A stretch of 24,376 nt of DNA from a virus. The stretch is from IMG/VR virus record IMGVR_UViG_3300046004_001880, positions 1-24,376 of that record. The stretch is one strand, 5' to 3'. Made by a program: the position numbers and the translations under genes. How positions within the stretch are numbered: position 1 is the first letter of the stretch; each line of letters begins with the position of its first letter. Below, one piece after another: positions 7,477-14,959 of the stretch. The notes beneath the pieces are model-generated. The model saw only the letters and a program-made list of their open reading frames with translations. It had not been told where the DNA came from and did not search any database.

Positions 7477-8241
7477 TTAAAATGTTAAGTTCATTTTTCT
7501 ACTCATAGATTCTAGTTGCTTTTTAATTTTAGACATGTTTTCACGTTTTACATTTTTTTCAAAATCGATACTTAAAGGTGCTGAAATTAAAGGACACTTG
7601 GAGTATTTAACAGTAGCATTTCCAAATATACTTGTAATTGATTCAGAGTATGTCTGTCTAAATAGCTTCTTACTACATGTAACATTAGCAACCTCATCAG
7701 CATGGCCAGCTTTTACAGCATTATCTCCAAACAACCACAGTTCATTAATGATGGCTGCATCATAAGCGGATTTCGTCATTCCAGACCTTTTTGATGATGC
7801 GGATGACATCCTAGATAGCAGTGCTTGAATATGAGTAAGTCTTGAGTTTAACTCTCCGGGAACTTGACCGGAGATACCTGAAACAGATCCTCTATGACTC
7901 ATAAGAGTTCCAGATGGTGTAATATACCTTGTGCCAAGTTCTTGAACAATCTGATACCCCATAGATGCTGCAAAAACAGTAACTGTGTGTATTTTAATAT
8001 TAAGAGCTTTAATGATATCAATAAATTGTAATCCAGCAGTTACAGAACCGCCCGGAGTATCCATAACTAGATACAGTTCATTTTCAGTAAATGATTTTTG
8101 AATAATTTCTACAGTTTTCTTAGCAATATATCCATCAGAAACTGCTTTATTAAATACTACACAATTCTTTTCGTTTAGCTCAATATTTTTAGCATGCGCT
8201 ATAGTTGATAATAGGGTTAGACTTAGTAAAAGTTTAAGCAT
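7477..8241 (-). CDS. Secreted ClpP-like serine protease
   Basis: 254 residues from the ATG at 8241, chosen because GGAG lies five bases upstream and because it gives a clean signal peptide (MLKLLLSLTLLSTIAHA, cleavage likely before KN); the in-frame ATG at 8268 adds nine residues. The mature part has the ClpP/crotonase fold signatures: DTPGGSV (61-67), the nucleophile Ser93 in AASMGYQ and His116 in MSHRG. The usual catalytic Asp is not obvious; an INELW stretch (165-169) occupies that region. The protein should act outside the cytoplasm, so it cannot be the partner of the nearby ClpX-like protein by standard logic. A candidate promoter lies directly upstream. Confidence 0.85.
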   Translation of the reverse strand: MLKLLLSLTLLSTIAHAKNIELNEKNCVVFNKAVSDGYIAKKTVEIIQKSFTENELYLVMDTPGGSVTAGLQFIDIIKALNIKIHTVTVFAASMGYQIVQELGTRYITPSGTLMSHRGSVSGISGQVPGELNSRLTHIQALLSRMSSASSKRSGMTKSAYDAAIINELWLFGDNAVKAGHADEVANVTCSKKLFRQTYSESITSIFGNATVKYSKCPLISAPLSIDFEKNVKRENMSKIKKQLESMSRKMNLTF

Positions 8242-8284
8242 GAATACTCCGTAAAATGAAACAAACAAAATCGTTTGTAAATAA

Positions 8285-12849: not shown

Positions 12850-13256
12850 GGAAAAAATATTCTCTTTTTAGATTTAGGTGGGACAATCTGTAAGTGTACC
12901 CAATTTGTCATCTTCCCAACTGTAGCAGACTTATCTTCCATATACAAGTTATATTTAGCAAGAATTTCAGGAGTTAGCTTATTAGCCAAAGATTGTTTTT
13001 TATCATCTAGAATATCAATAGCATTTCCAAGCATGTGATTAGATTTTTTAGCAGCACCCTTAGTAGCAGCATTTACTTCACTTGGACGAAACCCAGAAGA
13101 TACCTTAGCCTTAGATATCTCCAATCCACTTAATAGAGCATTTACATGAATTAAAAGAGTTTCCAGATTAGATATTACATCAGGAGTGAGTTCTGGATGA
13201 ACCTCCCTATCTGGGTAAGATCCGGAAGAAGTAACGGCATCCTTTAAATTAATCAC
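12846..13256 (-). CDS. M15-family peptidoglycan peptidase (endolysin)
   Basis: 136 residues from GTG 13256, chosen because it overlaps the upstream stop as GTGA with GGGAG in front; TTG 13268 is the alternative. Motifs of the M15 metallopeptidases: SGFRP (54-58), KSNHMLGNAIDI (71-82, zinc ligands His74 and Asp81) and WVHLQ (119-123, His121). Such enzymes cut peptide bonds in the peptidoglycan stem or crosslink. No signal peptide or cell-wall-binding domain is visible, so release would need a holin. The following 43-residue membrane protein is a candidate. Confidence 0.88.
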   Translation of the reverse strand: MINLKDAVTSSGSYPDREVHPELTPDVISNLETLLIHVNALLSGLEISKAKVSSGFRPSEVNAATKGAAKKSNHMLGNAIDILDDKKQSLANKLTPEILAKYNLYMEDKSATVGKMTNWVHLQIVPPKSKKRIFFP

Positions 13257-13474
13257 TCTATCTCCCAAGTATAGTATCTAACATCATCTTGATCAGCATG
13301 ATCTCCATCCATCATAAAAGACCATTCATTAAATGGAGGAAGTACGCCTAATTCTTCAAGCTTATCTAGTATTCTTTCAGCATCCATACCTTCCTTATCA
13401 TAGTCCTCTGGATAATGATTTCCAGTAAGTCGTAAGACATTAACTACATGTTCGATGGCTTCACTTCTTTTCAT
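13253..13474 (-). CDS. Small MKRSEA-type protein, copy A
   Basis: 73 residues from the ATG at 13474; an upstream in-frame start at 13510 would lie deep in the neighbour. Begins MKRSEAIEHVVNVL and continues with a helix (AERILDKLEELGVLPP). The start matches the 65-residue gene two places upstream, which begins MKRSEAVKLIHNII and has LLKALEEEGMF, so the two are probably paralogues. Helical small phage protein, function unknown. Confidence 0.6.
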   Translation of the reverse strand: MKRSEAIEHVVNVLRLTGNHYPEDYDKEGMDAERILDKLEELGVLPPFNEWSFMMDGDHADQDDVRYYTWEIE

Positions 13475-13694
13475 TTTCTTTTTCCCTAACTCTCTCGACG
13501 ATAAGATCAATATCTCTTATTAACTTAGTCTTAAGCATCTCTATGGATTGTTCTAAGCTAGGAGTCCCAAAGTTACCGTATACAAACTCCATACCGCCCT
13601 GACCAGCATGATATCCCGCATTGTAAATCCAATACATAGGAGTGCCATCTTCTTTAAACTCTATGGCTATTTCGGCTATTTTATATTTATTCAT
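13461..13694 (-). CDS. 77-residue hypothetical protein
   Basis: Starts in an ATGA overlap with the upstream gene. The N-terminal half is aromatic/Gly-rich (MYWIYNAGYHAGQGGMEF), and the C-terminal half is a charged helix (LKTKLIRDIDLIVERVREKE). No family recognised. It lies between the two MKRSEA-type paralogues. Confidence 0.6.
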   Translation of the reverse strand: MNKYKIAEIAIEFKEDGTPMYWIYNAGYHAGQGGMEFVYGNFGTPSLEQSIEMLKTKLIRDIDLIVERVREKENEKK

Positions 13695-13888
13695 TTTTCA
13701 TCCTCCCATCCTTTAGGTGTTCTTAATTGAAACTCACCCAAGTCCTCAACAGGGCAGTAGAACATACCTTCTTCTTCTAGAGCTTTAAGAAGTTCACTAC
13801 AGTCATTTAAGTTAAATTCTTCTGTAGTAAGTAATTCGTCACTGATGATGTTGTGTATTAATTTAACCGCTTCACTTCTCTTCATCAT
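13691..13888 (-). CDS. Small MKRSEA-type protein, copy B
   Basis: 65 residues; two adjacent ATG codons (13888 and 13885) follow AGAGG. Similar in its first 15 residues and overall plan to the 73-residue protein at 13253-13474. It is the first gene after the GC-rich non-coding insert, so its expression could be affected by that element. Function unknown. Confidence 0.6.
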   Translation of the reverse strand: MMKRSEAVKLIHNIISDELLTTEEFNLNDCSELLKALEEEGMFYCPVEDLGEFQLRTPKGWEDEK

Positions 13889-13898
13889 CTATCCTCTT

Positions 13899-14050
13899 AA
13901 GTTGTTCGCTGCGGTTATCAAACTAACAAACTCCCGCCCCACTACACTGTCTCGTCAGCCCTTAACTTGCGTCCACCAATCGAGGTTTCATTACAAGAGT
14001 TCTGAGTCATTCGATCCCCTGCCAACAGTTCGCAGGTTTGCTCGTTATAT
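13899..14050 (-). ncRNA. Candidate structured RNA: GC-rich non-coding insert
   Basis: About 150 bases with no convincing gene in a block where genes otherwise overlap or touch. By hand count 73 of 145 bases at 13901-14045 are G or C, clearly above the AT-rich surroundings. On the - strand it can form CCTGC/GCAGG (14036-14032 with 14022-14018, 9-base loop), a six-pair GATCGA/TCGATT helix with one G-U (14016-14011 with 13983-13978) and AAGTT/AACTT (13968-13964 with 13903-13899). A TATAAT lies just upstream (14062-14057) without a clear -35. Strand is assumed from the neighbours. It could be a leader/riboregulator, an intron or mobile-element remnant, or an omega-RNA-like element; no family assigned. 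Confidence 0.4.
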
Positions 14051-14057
14051 TCTAATA

Positions 14058-14477
14058 TTATAATCTTCCTATCTCAACGTATCCATTACGACTACTAAAT
14101 CTATGGATATAAGTCTTGTCATCAGAGTTCTCTACCAAATGTATCTTGCCTGTTCTTTCATTCATATAGATAGGTTGATACTCTTCTTTAGTTCTTATAA
14201 AAGACCTACCACCAGAGTATTCAATACTTAAACCTTGATTCATAAAAGCCTGACTAATTTCATCCTCGATACAAAATCCAAATATATCACGCAAGACTTC
14301 TGATTGGACAAAGTCCTTGTATAGCTTCCAACCTCCATCCTCACGATTAAAATGTTCCACAGCATCTTCAACTGCCCTACTAATAGCTTCTAGGATTTGT
14401 TTTTTTGTTTTGGATACACGATTAATCCGTAAGTCTCGTTTAACTGGTGCTGACAATACTAGTTTTTTCTCTTTCAT
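14058..14477 (-). CDS. Hypothetical protein
   Basis: 139 residues from ATG 14477, which overlaps the upstream TGA (ATGA) with GGAG in front; an earlier in-frame start at 14501 is unlikely. Basic N-terminus (VKRDLRINRVSKTKKQIL), helical middle (ISRAVEDAVEHFNRED) and beta-type C-terminus. No recognised domain. It is the last gene before the GC-rich insert. Confidence 0.6.
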   Translation of the reverse strand: MKEKKLVLSAPVKRDLRINRVSKTKKQILEAISRAVEDAVEHFNREDGGWKLYKDFVQSEVLRDIFGFCIEDEISQAFMNQGLSIEYSGGRSFIRTKEEYQPIYMNERTGKIHLVENSDDKTYIHRFSSRNGYVEIGRL

Positions 14478-14959
14478 TTCACTTCTCCACAATGAGGACA
14501 TTTATAATTATCTACTGTAGACATTTTTCCGCAATGGTCACAGCTATTGCTCCACATTTTAGCACACTCGATAGCAAGTTCGCAAGGTAATAGCTCTCTC
14601 GGAGCGTCACTAATAATTTCTTTACGTATGTGCGGATACTTAGCGCATACTACAGTGAAGGCATATTGTATGACCAGCTTCTGCCAGAATCTAATTATAG
14701 GAGCAATGTGCTTGAGTGGTTTATTCATTACGTCGAATGACCAAAGCCATTTAGGGTACTGAGAGTACATGAATCCGGGATGTGTGAACGAGTGTAGACT
14801 CCCGCTACATAAGTAAAGACTCCAGCGAGCTGTTCCATACTTCTCTTTACTATGAACACCTATGCGTCCGTACTTTCTCATTATAATATGAGCTTCGTTT
14901 ATAGCTTTATGTAGGGAATCCCAATCGAAATCCTCATCTCCCCAATAATGGTGTGGCAT
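14474..14959 (-). CDS. Hypothetical phage protein with C-terminal zinc ribbon
   Basis: 161 residues, start supported by AGGAG five bases upstream. The N-terminal part holds RKYGRIGVHSKEKYGTARW, a pattern seen in widespread phage/prophage proteins of unknown function. The C-terminus is a zinc ribbon: CDHCGK (~139-144) and CPHCGE (~154-159). A helical, aromatic middle (YPKWLWSF, IRFWQKLVIQYAFTVV) is not predicted as a true membrane span. Confidence 0.65.
   Translation of the reverse strand: MPHHYWGDEDFDWDSLHKAINEAHIIMRKYGRIGVHSKEKYGTARWSLYLCSGSLHSFTHPGFMYSQYPKWLWSFDVMNKPLKHIAPIIRFWQKLVIQYAFTVVCAKYPHIRKEIISDAPRELLPCELAIECAKMWSNSCDHCGKMSTVDNYKCPHCGEVK

Follow-up and report, generated by a model that had tools for sequence, protein, structure and literature searches.

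A conserved RNA-like element of uncultured phages, probably preserved as a truncated copy between two genes

We argue that uncultured phages of roughly 80 kb probably share a structured non-coding RNA of modular build, of which a GC-rich insert between two phage genes is a truncated copy. The insert lies in a viral contig of 24,376 nucleotides (IMG/VR record IMGVR_UViG_3300046004_001880), which we call the window. Judged by its sequence and those of its relatives, the insert carries on its - strand a conserved element with the features of an RNA; the group to which this element belongs stands outside the described RNA families and is reported here as new. Comparison among phages establishes that the element is conserved and keeps its orientation, that the pairs of one module (block M) are kept and the 3' hairpin of another (motif G) covaries, and that motif G is missing from the window, where the copy ends at a sharp junction. 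To our knowledge, GOLLD and ROOL-like structured RNAs of phages are among the least understood of all RNAs; the present locus leads to a further phage RNA group that is missing from Rfam 15, and its two compact modules (~50 and 60-110 nt) are small enough for direct testing.

The gap that holds the element (Table 1) begins at the stop of a 147-aa gene (14058-14501, -) and ends at the ATG of a 65-aa gene (13691-13888, -). The first-pass annotation had described the insert as GC-rich and apparently non-coding, and both descriptions are borne out: the gap as a whole has a GC content of 46%, with 49% at 13897-14043, against a contig mean of 34%, and the level of 13897-14043 is reached by only 0.12% of 150-base windows. 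It had also described all neighbouring genes as overlapping, which we can confirm for those nearby (14474-14959/14058-14501, 13691-13888/13461-13694 and 13461-13694/13253-13510). A protein-coding insert was considered and rejected. The frame of 40 codons, already doubted as a gene, is not one, because reading frames change between homologues through indels of 1 and 2 bases and a Pfam search returned no protein homologue for it; another frame, of 72 aa, is open on the + strand (13845-14063), and its conservation is absent. A tRNA/tmRNA search of the window found none.

Table 1. Coordinates of the element and its parts in the window, and of motif G copies that follow a regulator gene in other records
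Feature	Position	Strand	Basis or remark
Gap holding the RNA-like element	13889..14057	-	ORF map, GC profile, no conserved frame
Candidate -10 box TATAAT	14057..14062	-	Weak; consensus matches not above shuffles
Variable 5' domain	13945..14043	-	~80-85% identity to G004/L010 only, flanks unrelated; two sequences
Block M, conserved putative H-type pseudoknot module	13897..13944	-	In nine other phage records; 72/72 cells paired
M stem 1, 5' strand GCGG	13934..13937	-	Aligned pair counts
M stem 1, 3' strand CCGC	13911..13914	-	GC->UA double change in one sequence; GC->GU in two
M stem 2, 5' strand UUGUU	13925..13929	-	Aligned pair counts
M stem 2, 3' strand AACAA (most relatives AAUAA)	13902..13906	-	Middle pair alternates GC/GU
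CGAACAAC, 8-base match where the RNA gives way to the tail of a protein gene	13901..13908	-	Comparison with G003
TTAAGAGGATAG, relic end of a 78-aa gene (intact in G003), now ribosome-binding region of the 65-aa gene	13889..13900	-	
Motif G copies after the phrog_323 gene	L126:15996-16058, L113:5257-5352, L108:14906-15014, L141, L152, L154, L156, L159, L133		

Is there reason, then, to think of RNA at all? Folded as a single sequence, neither strand beats its dinucleotide shuffles (z -0.58 and +0.16), and energy folding of the window and its relatives gives no signal, which may be because pseudoknots lie outside the folding model. The helices that had been listed for the insert (CCTGC/GCAGG, GATCGA/TCGATT and AAGTT/AACTT) can be drawn, but with folding energies that do not surpass those of shuffles they are no evidence alone; a near-repeat, CTGCGAAC/CAGCGAAC, is likewise present, but no shared meaning was found for its copies, one of which falls in the 5' domain and the other in the end of M at the fusion point.

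The homologues are more informative. Two neighbouring proteins served to retrieve related loci from IMG/VR (4 and 16 found), and the window contig itself (G000) is contained whole, at 100% identity, in a longer record of 69.7 kb (G001). On the - strand, 14043-13897 is ~85% identical over 151 bases to an intergenic stretch of phage G004 (locus L010) whose flanking genes are unrelated. Block M occurs in nine other phage records (G002, L004, G003, G004, G005, G010, G016, G017 and G018), twice in tandem in G017; since G002 and L004 are nearly identical, as are G016 and G018, the contexts of M number only about seven distinct ones. INPHARED, the collection of named phages, yielded no convincing DNA relative, and among named phages the 161-aa neighbour protein was without a relative. 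Matches of the 17-mer CCTCGATTGGTGGACGC in other contigs (G001 excepted) were set aside as chance, lying inside unrelated sequence. The segment 13477-14054 diverges among phages that are 95-98% identical across much of the adjoining sequence, which marks it as a site of module exchange. Small paralogous genes in the window (13253-13888) and in L005 (6760-7422) share nearly identical first bases, ATGAARAGAAGTGAAGC; such genes are gained or lost between close relatives and look like recombination anchors.

Block M forms the last 48 bases of the element and is nearly unchanged across relatives. Of its first 44 bases, 1 is different between the window and G004, although the rest of the RNA has drifted. 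We propose that it folds as a small H-type pseudoknot, GCGG/CCGC plus UUGUU/AAYAA, whose nine pairs can form in 72 of 72 cells across eight aligned sequences, with one compensatory change (GC->UA) and other, one-sided changes that still leave the bases paired. Slid control versions of the pairing reach at most 69% of cells. Variation is low, however, and 53 of 500 shuffles match the observed pairing score, so that the pair counts are support for the fold and fall short of proof. A longer stem, joining the M loop to the downstream AAACTTAC, was tried and rejected: it is imperfect in most sequences and missing in the window, whereas the self-contained pseudoknot suits all eight.

Motif G follows M in G004, G005, G010, G016, G017 and G018. 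Its order is GGUGU-CAC-AUACC, an optional variable hairpin, AGUUGUGAG and a short 3' hairpin with a loop that is usually GCU and with U residues often next; it thus comprises a hairpin with a CAC triloop, what may be a pseudoknot contact, and a 3' hairpin that covaries. The G016/G018 copy, having no variable hairpin, is a minimal form. A model of the motif (R1) finds it in 17 phage records at E below 1e-8, in one to three copies each, always between genes and on the gene strand, where no reading frame of that strand spans it; the model gives nothing beyond chance level in the window, G001, G002 and G003. Pairs form in 96% of cells, 11 double-change cells stand against 3.4 in shuffles, and the covariation score, with its signal mostly in the 3' hairpin, is reached by 0 of 500 shuffles. 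The CAC:GUG contact is invariant in confident copies, partly because the search pattern demanded it; a low-scoring, weak relative in G012 (E 0.165) has UCACC/GGUGA in place of UCACA/UGUGA, as judged by eye. A Lysinibacillus match to the pattern was discarded as chance, since it apparently lies within a gene (again by eye). Nine records have a small helix-turn-helix gene related to D5-like transcription regulators (phrog_323, E 4e-6), and in all nine motif G comes directly after it, within ~15 bases; this offers a first handle on function. The comparison with related phages and the pairing analysis had both been proposed in the first-pass annotation, and their outcome, in homologues and in pair counts for M and G, supports two of its suggestions, a structured RNA and a remnant.

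Upstream of M the element is less constant. A short hairpin precedes M in the intact relatives, differing in sequence by phage and keeping its complementarity in most (by eye). Several phages carry further conserved GC-rich blocks upstream of M (GCGACCGATAGCC...AAGTCGGTGAC; L119:9259-9740, L109:18006-18270 and L041:2450-2630), which appear to be additional modules of this RNA. G005 has a tRNA-Val gene within the RNA, between an upstream conserved block and M, and it is the only such call; none was made in the window or in the other relatives. Separately, tRNA-like 3' ends, each a T-arm with an acceptor strand, adjoin the RNA in G005 (L109:18400-18590) and G003 (L005:6595-6745), with ~100 extra bases inside. 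In one example, GAAGG-TTCGAAT-CCTTC is followed by CATCCCC, with GGGGATG as partner; these ends draw no ARAGORN call and an Rfam tRNA score of 15.8 bits.

How, then, did the copy in the window come to lack motif G? Followed along the - strand in the 5' to 3' direction, the window tracks G004 as far as CGCAGCGAACAAC and then reads TTAAGAGGATAGATGATGAAGAGAAGTGAAGC, which is, one change apart, the 3' end of a 78-aa gene of G003 together with the beginning of the gene after it. What remains in the window is thus the 5' domain plus an M pseudoknot that is whole, without the 3' continuation and G, and because G is missing and the sequence switches at CGAACAAC into the tail of a protein gene still intact in G003, we regard the copy as a truncated chimera. 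M without G is likewise seen in G002, L004 and G003, and in G002 and G003 a different sequence comes next; for G002 and G003 this hints that M alone may be useful, which counts against truncation as the explanation.

The mechanism that we have in mind is the following. In the intact relatives a variable 5' domain, which encloses a tRNA gene in one phage, is followed by the M pseudoknot and then by G, and the whole lies between co-directional genes. Such an RNA would be transcribed with its operon (in the window the TATAAT box at 14062-14057, a weak match, may be a promoter of its own) and would persist as a stable RNA, with the compact G motif setting or protecting the 3' end and M serving as a binding or assembly core. 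The copy in the window would have lost its 3' part by recombination at the 8-base match while keeping the 5' domain and M, and most likely it is no longer fully functional, at best partly working. More tentatively, and with rather less confidence than we have in the truncation, one may imagine an undescribed family of structural RNAs in phages, with M and G as core modules that move between loci and in one case surround a tRNA, with G serving also as a 3' element after the D5-like regulator gene and M alone as a minimal working unit.

The main rival, which we consider unlikely, gives M a life of its own: M would be a self-sufficient module, here a cis leader of the 65-aa gene that could control its translation. 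A regulatory leader had been among the first suggestions for this insert, and the idea keeps some plausibility since the 65-aa gene now has M immediately ahead of its ribosome-binding site, AAGAGG, the pseudoknot ending a few bases before it; nothing positive was found for such a leader. A self-sufficient M is favoured by the completeness of M in the window, its near-identity to G004 despite drift elsewhere, and its retention without G in G002, L004 and G003. Yet the genes downstream of M vary between phages, unlike those of a gene-specific leader, and the ribosome-binding region itself derives from the end of another gene. It is more improbable still that the block acts as DNA, as a hot spot or recognition site for phage recombination whose RNA-like features are secondary. 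The variability of 13477-14054 between otherwise close relatives, the paralogous gene starts ATGAARAGAAGTGAAGC on its flanks and the tandem M in G017 would all suit such a site, but M and G invariably lie between genes and on the gene strand, and the kept pairs include G-U, which is favoured by RNA and not by DNA strands.

Least probable of all, and very improbable in our judgement, is that the insert stems from a described class (HEARO/omega-RNA, GOLLD, ROOL or a group I/II intron) and has since degraded; at the sensitivity of the covariance models such an origin is unsupported. GC-rich, non-coding and phage-borne, it has the right general look, and one relative encloses a tRNA gene as some GOLLD RNAs do (PMC12286853). 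GOLLD is a long structured non-coding RNA of phages in which the 3' part is conserved, the 5' part varies and the linker sometimes contains a tRNA, and ROOL is pseudoknotted, phage-borne and often near tRNAs; both often occur near tRNA islands and have no known function (PMC12286853). The present RNA resembles the two in setting and not in model match. Like GOLLD (RF02032) it is phage-borne with a variable 5' part, and the G005 RNA encloses a tRNA-Val, but across 12 records the GOLLD model finds nothing at this RNA, its single match being at chance level (E 6.05) and in another part of G002, and the conserved modules here measure ~50 and 60-110 nt. Like ROOL (RF03087) it is phage-borne and probably pseudoknotted, but the ROOL model has no match in the 12 records, although the control genomes gave none either. 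With the HEARO/IscB omega-RNA (RF02033), which had been named as a class to try, it shares a GC-rich non-coding RNA in a compact genome; the HEARO covariance model, however, matches 0 of 12 records, window included, at E 10, and an IscB-type (HNH/RuvC) nuclease is recognised neither among the 147-aa, 161-aa and 65-aa neighbours nor among the other window genes tested. The earlier idea of an intron fares no better, for Rfam scans are negative for group I/II introns and the element lies between two complete genes, with none interrupted. The full Rfam search that had been proposed, HEARO and introns included, gave no family match: in the window and its relatives, scans returned only chance matches at this RNA, nothing credible, and true tRNAs in relatives.

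Elsewhere in the window, positions 7477-8268 encode a ClpP-like protease of the head-maturation type (phrog_94, E 3e-15), the N-terminus of which resembles a signal peptide.
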